A stretch of 64,000 bases of DNA from an uncultured Muribaculaceae bacterium. GTDB taxonomy: Bacteria; Bacteroidota; Bacteroidia; Bacteroidales; Muribaculaceae. Below are positions 1-16,941 of this stretch, one piece after another. Each line of letters starts with the position of its first letter. Position 1 is the stretch's first letter. The notes beneath the pieces are model-generated. The model was not told the DNA's origin and ran no database searches. It worked only from the letters and a program-made list of their open reading frames with translations. The stretch is from contig CALUMI010000007.1 in the NCBI GenBank assembly GCA_944321725.1, positions 1-64,000 on the forward strand, in the 5' to 3' direction. The translations under genes were made by a program, and so were the position numbers.

Positions 1-84
1 CATCCACAACAGTTTGACGGTGTTGTACTTTTGCGACATCAGTCCCCCAAGCCTCTCAACGATGCTCAAAACTGGGTTGAGCAT
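1..84 (-). CDS. N-terminus of an unknown protein, cut by the window edge
   Basis: An ATG at 82-84 on the minus strand opens 28 codons that run off the left edge without a stop. The peptide starts MLNPVLSIVERLGGLMSQ and continues hydrophobic, and third positions are rich in G/C as in neighbouring genes. The plus strand is also open here but reads less like protein. The family cannot be told from so short a piece. Confidence 0.4.
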   Translation of the reverse strand, partial: MLNPVLSIVERLGGLMSQKYNTVKLLWM

Positions 85-10740: not shown

Positions 10741-11604
10741 TTAGCTGTTGGAATCTTCAGAGTAGTTATCGATAATAGTGGTTAACATCTCGTCAATCTT
10801 ATTGTATTCATCAAGATTTTCCGCTTGCCGTTTCACATTAGTCCTTGCCAAAGTAATCAAATATATATTACCGCGATTAATGAGATATTTGAACCAAGAC
10901 TCATTCGGAATCACGTAATCGTTGGTAACCTCTATGTCGAACATTTCCCCGTCGTCATAATCGTACCCCTTATGAGCCAAAAACATGTCATTAGAAAGAA
11001 ACAAATTAAACTTATTGTTATACTCAACGAATTGGTTCATCTTCATTTCATCAACAGAAAGAAAGGTTTTGACAATCAGCACCTTGTCAGTAAGCCATTT
11101 TCCAAGCAGCATCCCGCTTTCGCAAAATGCCCTCAAATCGTCCGAGCCTTGCATGCGAGGCTCTGCTACATACCAATGGTTTAAAGAAATAAACAGCATG
11201 AAACAATCGGAAATGGATTCCAACACTTTCGAATTGCGAATACGCTCTATGAAATTTTCACGCTCCACAATACGCTCCCGAAAATGACGAGGAAATAAAA
11301 ACAACTTATCTCCACCCACACACATTGCAAACCACAACTCCCCATCGTGGATAAATGTCGTAAAAAAGCACGGACGGCAAATAGCTATCTCAGCATCTTT
11401 CTTGCTATAGAAAAACATGATTATTTCCCACTTGTTTTTCCGATTTGTGGTCAACGAGTTTTGATACAATCTCGGATAAACATTCCATTTAAGTCTTTCA
11501 CGGTTTAATTTCGGCATAAATCTGCGCCAACGGCGGATTAATTCCTCATGATCTTTAATCAGTTCTTCTGCCTTTTCTTGCAGGCTCATACCCGAAACGA
11601 CCAT
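10741..11604 (-). CDS. Unknown protein with an F-x-R-H-F-R-E-R core
   Basis: A 287-residue soluble protein I do not recognise. I start it at the ATG at 11602-11604 because a purine-rich GAGGGGGTGAT lies directly upstream and a -7-like box sits further up; a GTG at 11646 is the alternative. Visible features are an N-terminal helix rich in E/R, then I-I-M-F-F-Y-S-K-K-D, a central F-P-R-H-F-R-E-R-I-V-E-R box, an aromatic L-N-H-W-Y-V-A-E-P strand, and an acidic N-Y-S-E-D-S-N-S tail. No transmembrane segment or catalytic motif is obvious. It is the last gene of the accessory island. Confidence 0.7.
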   Translation of the reverse strand: MVVSGMSLQEKAEELIKDHEELIRRWRRFMPKLNRERLKWNVYPRLYQNSLTTNRKNKWEIIMFFYSKKDAEIAICRPCFFTTFIHDGELWFAMCVGGDKLFLFPRHFRERIVERENFIERIRNSKVLESISDCFMLFISLNHWYVAEPRMQGSDDLRAFCESGMLLGKWLTDKVLIVKTFLSVDEMKMNQFVEYNNKFNLFLSNDMFLAHKGYDYDDGEMFDIEVTNDYVIPNESWFKYLINRGNIYLITLARTNVKRQAENLDEYNKIDEMLTTIIDNYSEDSNS

Positions 11605-11709
11605 ATCACCCCCTCTTTTATTATGGTACAAATACAATCCGGCCACGACAGATATAAAAACCTACCGCAACCGGAATAACAATATTTCTTGATTGGCTCT
11701 GACATCAAA

Positions 11710-11895
11710 CTACTGTCCACAATATTTATCTCTAATATCATGAATATCACGGGCAATATCGCTAAGGCTACTTGCCATCAAGAAAAAACTTTTAAAAACT
11801 TTCACAATCAATACTATCAGCAGCACAAACAATGCCACTGACACCAATAAAAATAATATTTCGGCAAGCCCAACTGCCATAAATCCTCCTACCAT
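11710..11895 (-). CDS. Small single-TM membrane protein
   Basis: A 61-residue protein with one long hydrophobic helix (about residues 5-36) of V/L/I runs and a short hydrophilic C-terminal tail (S-D-I-A-R-D-I-H-D-I-R-D-K-Y) that could form an amphipathic helix. It lies 10 bases after the GIY-YIG gene and probably shares its transcript. Size and layout resemble small membrane partners of toxin or phage-related modules, but no function can be assigned. Confidence 0.55.
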   Translation of the reverse strand: MVGGFMAVGLAEILFLLVSVALFVLLIVLIVKVFKSFFLMASSLSDIARDIHDIRDKYCGQ

Positions 11896-11905
11896 ATCTT
11901 TACAG

Positions 11906-12451
11906 TTAATCCTTCAAATTTGCGAACGGACGCTTGCCGTCATATTGCTGTTTAAACTCGGCAATCAACTCTTTCTCGATTTCAACAGGATTACCATCTT
12001 GCTCCGGTATCGCTTTCCAACAGAAAAGCAAATCTTTAGCGTACTTAATCTGCCAAATTAGCCGTCCGCCCCAATGCCCGACAGATTTACCGGTTCCGAA
12101 ATCGAGATAAGCGTTTATCCTTTTACGTAATGTGGACTTGCTTTTCTTGCCGTTTGCCTCAACACCTCCGGCTTTGCCAATATAAACCACACACGTGCCG
12201 CCTACCCAATTATTTTCAAGCTCGGAGATTGGCCTGTTCGGGTCTTCTTCCACTCTAACGCCTTTTCTCTTTCTCATCCGCTTTCCGCCGGTGCCTCTCT
12301 CCAAAAACTCAGGCATTCCGTCGCCTTCATATACCACAATATACACACCCTGCACGACAGGTATTCCGGATAAGTCCTTTCTCAAATCAGCCACAGAGCA
12401 GAATCCTTCGAATCCGGCTTCCTTCAAATCGCCAATCGTCCTATACTCCAT
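11906..12451 (-). CDS. GIY-YIG-fold nuclease-like protein
   Basis: A 181-residue protein carrying the GIY-YIG pattern: G-V-Y at residues 35-37, Y-I-G at 90-92, an arginine at about 111 in L-R-K-R-I, glutamates at 159/161 in V-E-I-E-K-E-L-I, and the closing P-F-A-N at 175-178. The spacer between the GIY and YIG strands is long (about 50 residues) and very basic (K-R-M-R-K-R-K), unlike the compact UvrC type. All key positions look intact, so it is probably an active endonuclease. It lies in a run with a 94- and a 71-residue protein that look like a fixed module. Its target is unknown. Confidence 0.8.
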   Translation of the reverse strand: MEYRTIGDLKEAGFEGFCSVADLRKDLSGIPVVQGVYIVVYEGDGMPEFLERGTGGKRMRKRKGVRVEEDPNRPISELENNWVGGTCVVYIGKAGGVEANGKKSKSTLRKRINAYLDFGTGKSVGHWGGRLIWQIKYAKDLLFCWKAIPEQDGNPVEIEKELIAEFKQQYDGKRPFANLKD

Positions 12452-12460
12452 AATAATTCT

Positions 12461-12745
12461 TTATTTATTAATAGCTTTCAAAATCGCCAATGCAGGAGAT
12501 TGTACACGGTCTACATATTTTTTCAATTTCGTTGTATTCAATTCAGAAACGTCACAATCTGAATAGGCCTTATACAATTTATCTAAATCAACTTCAAACG
12601 GATTGTTCGTGCTTTCTCTCTTGCCGTAACACATACTGCCTGCTACCGACAAATTGACATAATTAATTCCCGTCACACTTACAACTTGTTTCAAATCTCC
12701 TACTTTCTTAATAAATTCCTCTTTTGACATTTTTTTCTGTCCCAT
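12461..12745 (-). CDS. Unknown 94-residue protein of the GIY-YIG module
   Basis: A small soluble protein (M-S-K-E-E-F-I-K-K-V-G-D-L at the start, then S-V-A-G-S-M-C-Y-G-K-R-E-S). The middle reads like a short beta strand followed by two helices (D-L-D-K-L-Y-K-A-Y; K-K-Y-V-D-R-V). The conserved-looking tail V-Q-S-P-A-L-A-I-L-K-A-I could be a docking helix. It lies 9 bases before the GIY-YIG gene and 18 after the 71-residue gene. A DNA-recognition or control role is possible but unproven. Confidence 0.6.
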   Translation of the reverse strand: MGQKKMSKEEFIKKVGDLKQVVSVTGINYVNLSVAGSMCYGKRESTNNPFEVDLDKLYKAYSDCDVSELNTTKLKKYVDRVQSPALAILKAINK

Positions 12746-12763
12746 AATATCATTGTTTTATAA

Positions 12764-12979
12764 TTAGCCTTTTACTATTATTCTCTTATCCGCTATCAGC
12801 TTATCGAATTTCTCTATAGTCATATCGATAATGCCAAAATCATCACCCCCGTAAAATCCTATTTTACGCATTTTGTCGCGGATACGTTTTTGTGCATTTC
12901 TGTCAGCTTTTACCCTCTGACGAATCAACTCCCGCAACTCCTCAATCTCCTGCTTAGTAAAAACATTCTTTCCTTTCAT
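12764..12979 (-). CDS. Unknown 71-residue charged protein of the GIY-YIG module
   Basis: A strongly charged protein. The N-terminal half is a predicted helix (F-T-K-Q-E-I-E-E-L-R-E-L-I), then a basic K-R-I-R-D-K-M-R-K-I-G-F-Y-G-G-D-D-F-G block and a short C-terminal strand ending I-I-V-K-G. I recall proteins of this look as common small hypotheticals in Bacteroidales, but I cannot check that here. The pattern suggests a nucleic-acid-binding or antitoxin-like accessory protein. It is the first gene of the three-gene GIY-YIG run. Confidence 0.6.
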   Translation of the reverse strand: MKGKNVFTKQEIEELRELIRQRVKADRNAQKRIRDKMRKIGFYGGDDFGIIDMTIEKFDKLIADKRIIVKG

Positions 12980-13017
12980 AGTCTTATCAATTTATTTAAT
13001 TCGTTATCTTTTACAAA

Positions 13018-13386
13018 TTAATACCCTTTATATAATCTTTCAAAATTATTAAGCATAAATTCTGCCGCGTCTTTTTCCGCATCGGATGATTGTGGCGAAT
13101 TCAAAATATCAACATATTTGTTTCTTAATGCTTTAATTTCTTCCGTCGACATATTTGTAAGCCTTTCTTCCATTATCGCTTTATTCTTTTCCAGCATTCT
13201 CAACTCCTTGCCAATAGATGAATGCCGCTTAAAAAACTTGTAGCTGCTATATATGGAATATGGGATGTAGAATATAAACAACACAGGGAAGAAACAGCAT
13301 ATCACGAACAAAATTATGTCGACAACGCATCCGCCCGATTCGAAAAACGCATATTTTCTTAAATTATCCTCTATGCTCATAATCAT
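13018..13386 (-). CDS. Unknown membrane protein with C-terminal helical domain
   Basis: A 122-residue protein. A hydrophobic hairpin covers about residues 22-48 (I-I-L-F-V-I-C-C-F-F-P-V-L-F-I-F-Y). A cytosolic, helical, charged part follows: L-R-M-L-E-K-N-K-A-I-M-E-E-R-L, then A-A-E-F-M-L-N-N-F. Two possible ATGs lie two codons apart. It starts 6 bases after the stop of the 13393-13740 gene and is probably translated from the same message. I do not recognise it. Confidence 0.6.
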   Translation of the reverse strand: MIMSIEDNLRKYAFFESGGCVVDIILFVICCFFPVLFIFYIPYSIYSSYKFFKRHSSIGKELRMLEKNKAIMEERLTNMSTEEIKALRNKYVDILNSPQSSDAEKDAAEFMLNNFERLYKGY

Positions 13387-13392
13387 AACAAG

Positions 13393-13740
13393 CTAATAAT
13401 CCACAGAATATGTCACATTTCCGTCACTGTCGAGAAAAAACACCTTGTTTTCTATCACATATCCGCCGAAACTGTTTTTTGCGCGATACTTATGCCTGAC
13501 ATAGTACCCGTTGCCATTTTCCATCTCATTTACGGCCGACCACTCTATTGACTCATAACTGTCCGGATCCTTAAGATTGTTTTTAAGATACCTTTCCACT
13601 TGCCAAACAGAAGAGTCCAAGCCGCTGTTGCGCACCTCCGAATCGTAATCACTGTCCTCTGAATAGAAAATAAGAGATACAAGATATAACCCTAAAGCGA
13701 TGCCCAGCACCCATTTAAGCAATTTTCCAAACTCATTCAT
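13393..13740 (-). CDS. Membrane-anchored protein with a P-D-[ST]-Y-E domain
   Basis: A 115-residue protein with one N-terminal membrane helix (about 8-26) and a small outer domain. The domain has the pattern V-E-R-Y-L-K-N-N-L-K-D-P-D-S-Y-E at 48-63, then H-K-Y-R-A-K-N-S-F-G-G at 83-93 and a final F-F-L-D-S-D-G-N-V strand. The same two blocks occur, separated by a coiled-coil insertion, in the lipoprotein at 59802-60434. The function is unknown. The domain could sense or bind something in the periplasm, but nothing in the sequence says what. Confidence 0.65.
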   Translation of the reverse strand: MNEFGKLLKWVLGIALGLYLVSLIFYSEDSDYDSEVRNSGLDSSVWQVERYLKNNLKDPDSYESIEWSAVNEMENGNGYYVRHKYRAKNSFGGYVIENKVFFLDSDGNVTYSVDY

Positions 13741-13858
13741 AACTGTAATATTTTATTCACGTTCAATTCTTGAAGTATTACACATGTTATTAATTCGTTT
13801 AATAAGCAAATACTAAATGACAGATTGAAATAAGCGTTTTAACATATCCATATAAATC

Positions 13859-14401
13859 TTACTGATAGTACGGTTCTATTTCTTTCCAAATTTGTATTGC
13901 GTCCTTATTACCTCTATTTGCTGCTTCTTTTAGATCTGCCATAAATTGCTCAAGCATACCTGATGGTTCTTCGCTACCATTTTCGGCAGCTTTTTTAAAC
14001 CAATATATACATTTTGTCATATCCTTGTCTATTCCATATACTGATCCACTTAAATAAGCAGTTGCAAGCATAAACATTGATTTTTCGTCTTTCATAGAAG
14101 CTGCTTTCTCTAAATAATATATGCCTTTTTGTGCATCTGGTTCCACAACGTCCCCTAACAAATAATAAGCTCCTAACTGACTTATTGCTCTTATATTGCC
14201 ATTATCAGCAGCTTTGTGATACCAATAAGAAGCCTTTTCATTATTCTGCTCAACCCCAAGCCCACGCGCATAAAGTTCTGCCGTATAAAAATAGTTTTCA
14301 GCTTCATCGGTTTGATTTTCACTGTAAACCATTACAGAAGAAATACATATAACTATAACAACAGATGCAATAGCCAATATTCTTTTAGTCGTTTTTTTCA
14401 T
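13859..14401 (-). CDS. Sel1-repeat protein, short, membrane-anchored
   Basis: A 180-residue protein with an N-terminal hydrophobic anchor (residues 8-26). Three to four Sel1-like repeats follow, with the A-x-x-W-Y-x-K-A-A-x-x-G-[ND] signature (Y-W-Y-H-K-A-A-D-N-G-N near residue 60; Y-W-F-K-K-A-A-E-N-G-S near 130). Sel1 repeats are helical scaffolds for protein-protein contact. It follows a longer Sel1 lipoprotein by 12 bases, and the two are visibly A/T-richer than the flanking core genes. It was probably acquired together with it. Confidence 0.85.
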   Translation of the reverse strand: MKKTTKRILAIASVVIVICISSVMVYSENQTDEAENYFYTAELYARGLGVEQNNEKASYWYHKAADNGNIRAISQLGAYYLLGDVVEPDAQKGIYYLEKAASMKDEKSMFMLATAYLSGSVYGIDKDMTKCIYWFKKAAENGSEEPSGMLEQFMADLKEAANRGNKDAIQIWKEIEPYYQ

Positions 14402-14413
14402 AATAACAATAGT

Positions 14414-15391
14414 TTAATCAGATATTTTATTCAACATATCTATAGCATGTCTATCTTTCTCAGCAGCAGCTTTTTGATACCAATATTTTGCAGACTCAAC
14501 ATCCTTATATCCATAATAAAAACAGTCGCCAAGCAAAGATGCCGCATGTCTATACCCTCTCTTGTCAGCCTCTATTAGCCAATATTTTGCTTTTTCATAA
14601 TTCTGTTCAATTGCATCTCCTCTTAGGAAACAAGCTCCAAGATCGTATTGCGCTCCGGCTACTCCTTTATCAGCAGCCAACTTATAATAATAGATTGCTT
14701 TTTTAGTGTCTTTCTCTACACCTTTACCAAGAAACAGACATTTACCTAAACTATATTGCGCTTCAGCAAGTCCTTGTTTTGCAGCTGATTCATATAATGA
14801 CGCAACCAAATTATCATAATGCGCATAGAAAAAATCACCCTCATAGACATATCCTAACCGATATTGGGCTTTTGCATACCCCTGCTTAGCCGCTTTAGAA
14901 TACCAATCAACAGCTATATTTGTGCGTTGTGGAAAATCCATATCTAAATTATAATAATAGTATTCTCCTAAGCAAAATTGGGCTTCAGGATTATCTTTTT
15001 CCGCAGCTTGCTTATATAAGTCAAACGCTTTTTGAGGATCTTCATCAATGCCTAAACCATAACAATAACAATGAGCAAGATTTAATTGAGCTTCTGCATT
15101 ACCTTGATTAGCTGATTGCTGCCAATATTTTATCGCTTTTCTAAAATTTGGCTCTACATAATCACCTGTAGTGAAAACTTTTCCCAATAAATATTGGGCA
15201 TTCGCATTTCCATCATTTGCCAAATCTGTCAATAAACCAATTCCTTTATCAACATTCGTACTATCTTCTTTTATATATTTTAATGCCAATTCTATTTGCT
15301 CATCAGGATTCCCCGTTTTTACAGAATCACAAGCAAACATCATTGTTGAAGCCAACAATAACTCTACAAATAAAAAATTCAGCCTTTTCAT
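14414..15391 (-). CDS. Sel1-repeat lipoprotein
   Basis: A 325-residue protein starting MKRLNFLFVELLLASTMMFAC, a lipoprotein signal with the acylated Cys at about residue 21. An upstream in-frame extension lacks a signal and overlaps the neighbouring gene, so the start at 15391 is preferred. The rest is about seven Sel1 repeats, for example Y-W-Q-Q-S-A-N-Q-G-N-A-E-A-Q and Y-Y-Y-K-L-A-A-D-K-G-V-A-G-A-Q. It lies 4 bases after the 90-residue gene and 12 before a shorter Sel1 gene. The expected role is an extracytoplasmic scaffold; the partner is unknown. Confidence 0.88.
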   Translation of the reverse strand: MKRLNFLFVELLLASTMMFACDSVKTGNPDEQIELALKYIKEDSTNVDKGIGLLTDLANDGNANAQYLLGKVFTTGDYVEPNFRKAIKYWQQSANQGNAEAQLNLAHCYCYGLGIDEDPQKAFDLYKQAAEKDNPEAQFCLGEYYYYNLDMDFPQRTNIAVDWYSKAAKQGYAKAQYRLGYVYEGDFFYAHYDNLVASLYESAAKQGLAEAQYSLGKCLFLGKGVEKDTKKAIYYYKLAADKGVAGAQYDLGACFLRGDAIEQNYEKAKYWLIEADKRGYRHAASLLGDCFYYGYKDVESAKYWYQKAAAEKDRHAIDMLNKISD

Positions 15392-15395
15392 AGCG

Positions 15396-15668
15396 TTAAC
15401 TTTTAAGACGTTGAAAGTACCAATTAGTGTTTTTAGTCTTGCGTTCAGGCAATACAGACGGAATTTTATCCAACTCATTATTACGGTCCAACTTCCGCAA
15501 TACTTTTCTTATCGGAAGTCCTTCTCTTTCAGAATCTTTATTAAAGATTCCGGCTTTAATAAATTCCGACATAAGATCCATTGCCGGAATTTTGTTTACT
15601 GACGGATTGCTTTTGAAATAGTCGGTGACTACTTGGTTGATTCGGGCAATTTTAGTTTTTTCATCCAT
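15396..15668 (-). CDS. Small winged-helix-like protein behind a structured leader
   Basis: A 90-residue soluble protein starting MDEKTKIARINQVVTDYF. Predicted helices are followed by L-P-I-R-K-V-L-R-K-L-D-R-N-N-E-L-D and a strand pair ending N-T-N-W-Y-F-Q-R-L. This layout resembles a small winged helix, a nucleic-acid-binding fold, but the call is by eye. The reading frame stays open upstream for 25 codons to a TAA at 15744-15746, then again to 15890. The frame is therefore interrupted by one stop only. It is the first protein gene of the island transcript, followed at once by the Sel1 lipoprotein. Confidence 0.65.
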   Translation of the reverse strand: MDEKTKIARINQVVTDYFKSNPSVNKIPAMDLMSEFIKAGIFNKDSEREGLPIRKVLRKLDRNNELDKIPSVLPERKTKNTNWYFQRLKS

Positions 15669-15669
15669 A

Positions 15670-15950
15670 ACATTAGGTTTTACGCTCTGCCCGGCTCCTG
15701 TGCAGGTGGTTTGCAAATAAAAAGAAAGTGTGGAGTCGTTGGTTTATCGAATGGAGGCTCTGGAATGCCCTTGTGTCAATAACCAATACCCCACACTGGG
15801 TACGTATATACTTCCGTCAGTATATATCACGCCAGTGAAGAGTGCTTGTAAATTTATTTCTGACACAATGAAAATTTTCCAGATTCCCATTCAAAAATAA
15901 AAGCCAAACACTTTCATTTATTCCGTATGTCATTGGAGCTTATGCTCCAA
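15670..15950 (-). ncRNA. Long structured leader RNA (candidate cis-regulatory element or ncRNA)
   Basis: From the promoter at 15954-15985 the minus-strand transcript should start near 15947 and run about 280 bases before the first good start codon. It can form a 7-bp 5' hairpin (15933-15939 with 15944-15950). It can also form a nested hairpin (outer 15794-15799 with 15832-15837, inner 15805-15811 with 15820-15826). A long stem pairs 15728-15736 with 15788-15796 and continues through 15739-15744 with 15781-15786. The last two share bases 15794-15796, so they compete. Two exclusive folds ahead of a gene are typical of RNA switches. No known riboswitch class is recognised. Confidence 0.45.
15744..15890 (-). 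pseudogene. Leader reading frame in phase with the 90-residue gene, ended by one TAA
   Basis: An ATG at 15888-15890 opens 48 codons (start MGIWKIFIVSEINLQALF, end G-H-S-R-A-S-I-R) closed by TAA at 15744-15746. The frame is the same as that of the gene at 15668 (222 bases apart), and no other stop intervenes down to 15396. It may be the N-terminus of a once longer protein broken by a nonsense mutation, a leader peptide, or a chance frame inside a structured RNA. Confidence 0.3.
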
Positions 15951-15953
15951 ATA

Positions 15954-15985
15954 CAAAGGTAGAAAATGTTTTTGATTTTTACAAA
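15954..15985 (-). promoter_or_regulatory. Accessory-island promoter
   Basis: On the minus strand TACCTTTG (15954-15961) matches TAnnTTTG and TTTG (15982-15985) matches the -33 box, with a 20-base spacer. It is one of the best promoter matches in the window. The start point falls at the edge of a 5' hairpin. Confidence 0.75.
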
Positions 15986-16026
15986 ACATCCCTTTGGGGT
16001 ATTGCTTCACTCTTATCCTCTGATAA

Positions 16027-16941
16027 TCAAGCTGTATCATTCTTATTTCTCTCTAAGGCTGCTTTCCATACGCCGCACAGACGCTCACGCAGACTGTCGG
16101 GCTTCACGACCGTCACCGAACGGCTTCGGGAAAGCAATGCCATAACAAAGTCGTTGGTGACACGAAGATGCAGCCGCACTGTAATGCCATCCTCGCCATC
16201 CTCCAATATCTCCTGCGATTTATGGAGCGGCAACGTTTTGATAAACGCGCCGTCCAAAGCGTCATATCTAAGGATTATCTCCTCAACGGGGTCTGAAGGG
16301 TTGTTCCAAATGCCATAACATTCGTCGAAAAGACGGCGGATGTCGATTGAATCATTCCGCCTGAACGGCACGGACTCATCTACCTCAACGTTGCTGATTC
16401 TGTCGATTCCGAGCGAGCGCAACTCGTCCTTTTCATTATAGCCGACAAGATACCAACGCTGCTGCGACTCTTTCAGAAAATGCGGCTTCAATCGGAAATG
16501 AGCAATCTTACCGCCCTGACGCACCAAGCAATAATCGAACTCAATGGTAAGGCACCGGCGTATGGCCTCAAGCATCAAATGGAAGTCGCCGTTCACCTTA
16601 TAGGCGTGATGCTCGGCCACCACATACTTTTGCAACGTTGAATCGGCATCAATAGAACTCAAAAGCTCGAAGTTGAGGAGCAAATCCTCATAACGGTCGG
16701 CGTTTTCGTGACGCTCGGCAATATAGTATCCTCTGCTTTTATCGTTGCCTATCTCTATGCCGAAAAGCTCAGCAATGGCATTGATGTCACGTTGGACAGT
16801 ACGCAGCGAACAGTCCTTGCAGCCACGCAGTCGCATCGCCACGTTCACCCCATCGACAAGCTCCGCCGTAGGAATATATTTACGCGCATTTAGCTTGTTG
16901 ATTATTACAGCCAACCGTATTATCTGATAATCCTTTGCCAT
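16027..16941 (-). CDS. WYL-domain transcriptional regulator (YafY-like)
   Basis: A 304-residue regulator. The N-terminal winged helix (about 1-65, with A-E-L-V-D-G-V and T-V-Q-R-D-I-N-A-I) binds DNA. The WYL domain follows at about 120-220, with the signature Q-Q-R-W-Y-L-V-G-Y-N. A C-terminal WCX-like part closes it with V-T-N-D-F-V-M-A-L-L-S-R. WYL proteins respond to nucleic-acid or nucleotide ligands and often govern mobile or defence genes. It lies between the accessory island and the VapD pair, divergent from the latter, so it may control either. That is inference from position. Confidence 0.9.
   Translation of the reverse strand: MAKDYQIIRLAVIINKLNARKYIPTAELVDGVNVAMRLRGCKDCSLRTVQRDINAIAELFGIEIGNDKSRGYYIAERHENADRYEDLLLNFELLSSIDADSTLQKYVVAEHHAYKVNGDFHLMLEAIRRCLTIEFDYCLVRQGGKIAHFRLKPHFLKESQQRWYLVGYNEKDELRSLGIDRISNVEVDESVPFRRNDSIDIRRLFDECYGIWNNPSDPVEEIILRYDALDGAFIKTLPLHKSQEILEDGEDGITVRLHLRVTNDFVMALLSRSRSVTVVKPDSLRERLCGVWKAALERNKNDTA

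Follow-up and report, generated by a model that had tools for sequence, protein, structure and literature searches.

Riboswitches with terminator platforms, such as the fluoride and SAM-I classes, combine a conserved core with a competing terminator strand, and one class can stand before many genes. In Bacteroides, the sRNAs FopS and GibS are multicopy, have Bacteroides-type promoters and a Rho-independent terminator, and are also found on phage; FopS has a single-stranded 5' stretch and a terminator hairpin, and acts in trans on susC-like mRNAs (PMC11697453). The 5' UTRs of B. thetaiotaomicron are mostly short, with 13.5% exceeding 100 nt, and leader-type elements are suspected in some (PMC7366714). 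A comparative-genomics survey lists Bacteroidetes motifs (PMC2864571), and a microbiome survey reported 5'-UTR candidates, with HTH_XRE as the commonest downstream domain (PMC8040213).

Here we analyzed a leader RNA in 64,000 nt of contig CALUMI010000007.1 (assembly GCA_944321725.1, from an uncultured Muribaculaceae bacterium), hereafter the window. Consistent with the sequence-only reading of this DNA, in which no known riboswitch class had been recognized, Rfam 15 (riboswitch classes and T-box included) provided no match for this RNA, whether searched with the window, the leader or 16 diverse homologous loci; at a lax threshold, the leader returned only sub-threshold chance matches. No match was found either among those survey candidates (PMC2864571, PMC8040213) that are in Rfam. 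Candidates outside Rfam were not compared, and earlier partial detection of this RNA in structured-RNA surveys cannot be excluded. We consider it likely, from sequence and folding and without transcript data, that the leader acts in cis as a transcription attenuator, that it belongs to a new family spanning the phylum, and that it forms a portable promoter-plus-attenuator module.

Promoter, leader and first genes in the window

The window has a promoter of the Bacteroidetes TTTG / TAnnTTTG type on the minus strand (TTTTGT...TACCTTTG, 15986-15954), where one had been read from the letters alone at 15954-15985. It is conserved in homologues: of 142 homologous leaders, 129 have TAnnTTTG in a comparable position, compared with 11 shuffled upstream regions. 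The structured leader of about 280 bases proposed to follow it was also recovered. It spans 282 nt, and its minimum free energy (-86.0 kcal/mol; stretch folded, 15950-15668) was not equalled by any of 200 shuffles (-62.8 +/- 4.3; z -5.47). Two pairings in it compete. The first joins CACTGG (15837-15832) to CCAGTG (15799-15794), the second joins AGTGTGGGGT (15797-15788) to ACTCCACACT (15736-15727), and bases 15797-15794 are common to both, making them mutually exclusive. This overlap contains the bases 15794-15796 for which competing folds had been claimed, and each pairing is backed by covariation in homologues. The features are as follows (window coordinates, all on the minus strand).

15954 to 15986, minus: Bacteroidetes-type promoter TTTTGT-N19-TACCTTTG, from sequence, with TAnnTTTG kept in homologous leaders
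15669 to 15950, minus: structured leader (5' UTR), 282 nt, transcript start inferred; fold z-score and match to covariance model R2
15933 to 15950, minus: 5' hairpin TTGGAGC-ataa-GCTCCAA, from folding; homologues have variable hairpins there (by eye)
15926 to 15931, minus: GACATA motif; ACATA at that place in 84 of 142 leaders
15893 to 15924, minus: strand 1 (X1), pairing with strand 2 as anti-antiterminator hairpin; own-versus-swapped energies
15887 to 15892, minus: 5' strand of P1, GAATGG, partner CCATTC; covariation
15749 to 15754, minus: 3' strand of P1, CCATTC; covariation
15877 to 15883, minus: 5' strand of P2, TCTGGAA, with the 3' strand TTCCAGA at 15765-15759; covariation
15861 to 15868, minus: 5' strand of P3, TTGTGTCA, with the 3' strand TGACACAA at 15778-15771; covariation
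15832 to 15859, minus: strand 2 (Y1), partner of strand 1 or strand 3; own-versus-swapped energies
15779 to 15798, minus: strand 3 (X2), antiterminator with strand 2 (139/144) or terminator with strand 4 (143/144)
15727 to 15748, minus: strand 4 (Y2), GATAAACCAACGACTCCACACT; own-versus-swapped energies and independent helix test
15727 to 15797, minus: putative intrinsic terminator hairpin (3:4), of the same shape in 133 of 136 homologues with a U-run
15715 to 15726, minus: terminator U-run, from sequence and U-runs in homologues
15687 to 15705, minus: hairpin E (CTGC...GCAG); stem covariation in many homologues, weak in the window copy
15692 to 15699, minus: strand 5 or D, AGGAGCCG, loop of hairpin E; complementary to Y2 in many homologues, weakly in the window
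15396 to 15668, minus: 90-residue first gene, possibly a winged helix, leader cargo; open reading frame, structure prediction and distribution
10741 to 15391, minus: co-directional gene run (two Sel1 proteins and small ORFs), presumed to be in the same transcription unit; co-transcription inferred only

Across the family, the promoter and a 5' hairpin, frequently followed by ACATA, lead into strand 1 and then the 5' strands of P1-P2-P3. Strand 2, an apical hairpin and strand 3 come next; after them the 3' strands of P3-P2-P1 precede strand 4 and the U-run, and a small hairpin carrying strand 5 in its loop lies before the start codon.

The 90-residue gene (15668-15396) is indeed first, as the sequence-only reading had it, and the Sel1 genes do come after it, in a run to 10741. 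The winged-helix-like character attributed to its product remains plausible but is not demonstrated: the AlphaFold2 model (pLDDT 71) has the order H-E-H-H-E, and Foldseek returned no significant match for it, several of the weak ones being winged-helix chains. A confident homologue of the protein was found in one sister genome only and, judged by this distribution, it is cargo and not a constant partner of the RNA.

Two neighbours are recorded here. A gene for a WYL-domain regulator (WYL + WCX domains; 16027-16941, minus) immediately precedes the leader promoter and has the same orientation. At the extreme edge of the window (46-77, plus strand) there is an abiF RNA (RF03085; 42.5 bits, exceeding its gathering score), which suggests an adjoining Abi_2 abortive-infection gene.

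Homologues and competing helices

A DNA search within Muribaculaceae detected collinear short matches in other genera. A first covariance model (R1), built from six homologues, had matches in 48 of 397 family genomes; without the arm, it missed long-armed members, the window copy included, and we therefore built a second model (R2) from 50 sequences, with the window copy in the seed. R2 E-values are rough, owing to a shortened calibration. R2 matches the window at 15891-15749 (92 bits, for a copy that belongs to the seed) and gives 13 candidate places in the window's own genome, with E up to 1. The twelve others, which lie outside the seed, have the same general layout ahead of unrelated genes. 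Two own-genome copies (L237 and L244) have extra-long apical arms (cores of 178 and 205 nt) and keep strand 4, the U-run and strand 5.

The genomes sampled were in part drafts. All 38 from the family had R2 matches (30/30 genera, up to 15 per genome). Outside the family, we counted 9 copies in Phocaeicola vulgatus ATCC 8482, 10 in B. salyersiae, 17 in Bacteroides congonensis and 16 in P. faecis, and one to five in those Flavobacteriia and Cytophagia that were searched. With strict filters, a draw across the phylum had the RNA in at least 21 of 296 genomes, a lower bound. An exact pattern of the conserved core (22 fixed bases) was found in at least 117 stretches among 84,980 species genomes; among the 80 matches listed, all organisms were Bacteroidota, from Bacteroides and Prevotella to Chryseobacterium, Riemerella, Dyadobacter and Emticicia. 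Apparently, this is a large and undescribed RNA family across Bacteroidota, often with many copies per genome.

The core pattern is also present in 18 viral contigs, and family members occur on human-gut phage records. A close RNA subgroup (L173-L189) is found on virus-binned contigs, where the neighbour gene is in some cases UmuC-like by appearance and in others encodes a conserved unknown protein (SLNSVEEIPNLNASAAF..). On plasmids or elements of Bacteroides and Parabacteroides, a member has rteB on one side and a DHFR-family gene, then rteC, on the other; an RNA at this place could affect the control of transfer genes. Members on CTnDOT-type elements (tetQ-rteA-rteB-rteC) include L191-L193, L004, L031, L034, L082 and L181.

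The alignment of homologous leaders for compensatory changes, the check that had been suggested for this RNA, yielded strong support. Among 35 aligned R1 matches, 94.5% of the cells of P1, P2 and P3 are paired, compared with 34-44% when partners are slid, and 20 of the 21 pairs show double changes. In the phylum-wide set of 50 sequences, 97.3% of helix cells are paired, compared with 25-46% when slid; P3 could not be registered in that alignment, and its support comes from the 35-match alignment only. For the longer strands we compared duplex energies of each leader's own strands with those of strands exchanged between leaders, in 144 non-redundant leaders. These swapped controls preserve composition and do not fully remove phylogenetic dependence. 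Own strands paired better in 128 of 144 leaders for 1:2 (-15.0 vs -10.7 kcal), in 139 for 2:3 (-20.3 vs -13.3) and in 143 for 3:4 (-22.5 vs -14.2); an independent ungapped helix test agreed for 3:4 (150/158). No own-versus-swapped signal was seen in the 144 leaders for 1:3 (X1:X2) or 2:4 (Y1:Y2). An outer stem 1:4, with a weak signal (-13.2 vs -11.9; 95/144), is not claimed.

The 4:5 duplex is favoured in 60 of 82 leaders (-11.0 vs -8.7) and is no better than swapped in the other 22; the window copy has it only in weak form. The stem enclosing strand 5 scored +2.4 +/- 0.4 over swapped (46/63), a result from ungapped D sites and not from the automatic gapped-duplex test. GAAAT/ATTTC, the apical stem of hairpin 1:2, shows almost no variation, so that covariation neither backs nor excludes it. 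The comparisons thus support a chain of competing helices 1:2, 2:3 and 3:4, extended by 4:5 in many copies, and at this level the helices and their mutual exclusiveness can be taken as established.

A U-run is present in 112 of 144 leaders (13 control windows), and a hairpin ends at it in 133 of the 136 leaders with a U-run. This hairpin is about 78 nt long (mean -33 kcal/mol, with the 3' half folded alone) and has the apex GGY-N-RCC in 127 leaders. The 3' half (-34.2) is more stable than its shuffles (-21.2), in all 144 leaders; that of the window folds at -32.6 kcal/mol. By shape 3:4 is an intrinsic terminator, and the terminator-like hairpin, the U-run, the promoter and the spacing to the gene rest on sequence comparison; that transcription ends there in the cell is our inference. 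The 5' half forms hairpin 1:2 (-23.3 vs -18.9). The long hairpin of P1-P2-P3 and 2:3 (mean -53.5) and the two-hairpin state (mean -57.6) are near balance in energy.

Two other models were discarded. One is the single minimum-energy structure of the full leader, in which the two states are mixed and the terminator does not show. The other is a pseudoknot of 3:4 atop P1-P3; with the halves folded apart, 3:4 is better described as a terminator hairpin that excludes P1-P3.

Downstream genes, mechanism and rival explanations

Downstream context was scored with simple ORF rules. A co-directional ORF starts within 450 nt in 146 of 161 loci, and the distance to the ATG peaks at 70-90 nt after the core/P1. 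About half of these ORFs look secreted by a simple signal-peptide heuristic, for which there was no matched background. The genes are unrelated: secreted LRR proteins, lipoproteins, HTH regulators, Sel1 proteins and ICE genes, and in the window's own genome two Cro/C1 HTH, two BspA-type LRR, a PD-(D/E)XK, an FRG-domain and a ferritin-like protein, besides unknowns. In pairs of similar RNAs, the upstream gene is shared and the downstream gene is not, or vice versa, so promoter and RNA appear, on this evidence, to move together as a module. In one homologous locus (L144) the gene right after the RNA resembles the seventh gene of the window's island (12461-12745; MSKEEFIKKV.. / MTKEQFIDRV..), possibly a recurrent cargo. 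We set aside an ORF of 62 aa that runs across the RNA in L016 (similar in L004); its frame is not conserved in L001 or L003.

By sequence and folding, the leaders have the parts of a transcription attenuator: promoter, leader and gene in this order, a terminator with its U-run, and a conserved antiterminator that shares its strands. The exclusive covarying helices, their compensatory changes and the terminator hairpin before the gene support the earlier suggestion of an RNA switch controlling the island, although switching is inferred at most, without data. In the mechanism we propose, the RNA made from its own promoter would consist of four strands that compete for pairing. With strand 2 held by strand 1, strand 3 would be free for strand 4, forming the long terminator hairpin right before the U-run, and transcription would end about 230 nt past the start. 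If strand 3 captures strand 2, through P1-P2-P3 and the arm, the long antiterminator hairpin would leave strand 4 single, and RNA polymerase would read through into the gene. The direction of control is inferred. After read-through, strand 4 may pair with strand 5 in the small-hairpin loop ahead of the start codon; strand 5 is made after the U-run, and 4:5 is thus unable to decide termination, but may fix the RNA in its read-through form, or act close to the ribosome site. The P2 bases CUGG and CCAG, which are near-invariant, would in the two-hairpin state lie in two facing apical loops, which P2 would join, and we infer that this is the likely nucleation point of the change.

No trigger is indicated: the downstream genes have no common pathway and suggest no ligand or protein partner. 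In the window's own genome, P2 is of the type TCTCGCA/TGCGAGA in about half of the copies, and TCTGGNA, CCTGAGAAA or ATCCCCA in others; these types are possible specificity groups. One could speculate, though we find it doubtful, that paralogous leaders of one genome share apical-loop specificities and that terminated leaders, or leaders from ICEs and phages, enter the hairpins of another leader through complementary CUGG/CCAG-type loops and set its termination, a phylum-wide RNA-only network linking mobile elements and accessory genes without protein or metabolite sensor.

Among other explanations, a metabolite riboswitch survives best, and it would refine the attenuator rather than oppose it. 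Here P1-P2-P3, with the invariant AAA/GCC and AATT/GGC loops, would be the aptamer and the terminator its expression platform. The invariant unpaired bases of the long hairpin and the presence of a terminator/antiterminator platform keep this possible, but we regard it as unlikely: the terminator-apex stem can account for the invariant GGC/GCC, with some covariation to GGU/ACC (weak, partly invariant), a small stem of hairpin 1:2 can account for AAAT/ATTT, and the downstream genes share no metabolism.

Alternatively, the RNA could be a free-standing regulatory RNA of about 230 nt that acts in trans and is merely upstream of genes. Nearly all copies have their own promoter and strong terminator, and ICE copies following rteB are flanked by unrelated or distant downstream sequence, often with no clear gene within 200 nt, so that some copies may work as free RNAs. 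As a general account this is improbable given the co-directional ORFs and the sharp ATG peak; strand 5 and hairpin E, beyond the terminator, co-vary with the RNA, and a balanced antiterminator would be needless.

That nearly all copies of the RNA begin where transcription is presumed to start, and that a run of about ten genes follows in the window, would also suit a promoter-linked, put/EAR-like RNA that modifies RNA polymerase for processive antitermination, a very remote prospect when each copy has its own terminator/antiterminator pair and many precede single genes. Finally, the RNA-plus-protein element envisaged by the sequence-only reading, for example a type III toxin-antitoxin with the 90-residue protein as partner, has adjacency on the same strand in its favour and deserves next to no credence, being contradicted by distribution (a confident protein homologue in one sister genome only, and an RNA that precedes dozens of unrelated genes).

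Implications and comparison with known systems

If the attenuator reading is true, one undescribed attenuator in Bacteroidota, often with about ten copies per genome in gut species, would control secreted proteins, regulators and mobile-element genes, including the rteB-rteC region, which controls the tetracycline-induced transfer of CTnDOT-type elements. In this phylum of common gut bacteria, a widespread layer of gene regulation would seem to have been overlooked, and it would explain some of the phylum's unusually long 5' UTRs. It would also provide a single testable RNA with many natural variants, and possibly a promoter-plus-switch part for gut bacteria.

Like riboswitches with terminator platforms, this RNA has a conserved core and a competing terminator strand and precedes many genes; unlike them, it has no Rfam match, indicated ligand or shared target pathway. 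With FopS and GibS it shares a multicopy Bacteroidota distribution, a Bacteroides-type promoter, a terminator and occurrence on phage, but as a putative 280-nt attenuator ahead of genes it does not follow the FopS layout of single-stranded seed and terminator. In architecture it resembles trp-leader attenuators, where successive strands also compete as 1:2, 2:3 and 3:4, with 3:4 as the intrinsic terminator before a U-run. In contrast to them, no conserved leader peptide is apparent by eye: an ATG (MKVF...) was seen in the GATGAAAGTG sub-type only, by inspection and not by a systematic uORF test. The predicted terminator and antiterminator are 70-150 nt long, and the RNA is multicopy, lies ahead of unrelated genes, carries its own promoter and has a fifth strand past the terminator.
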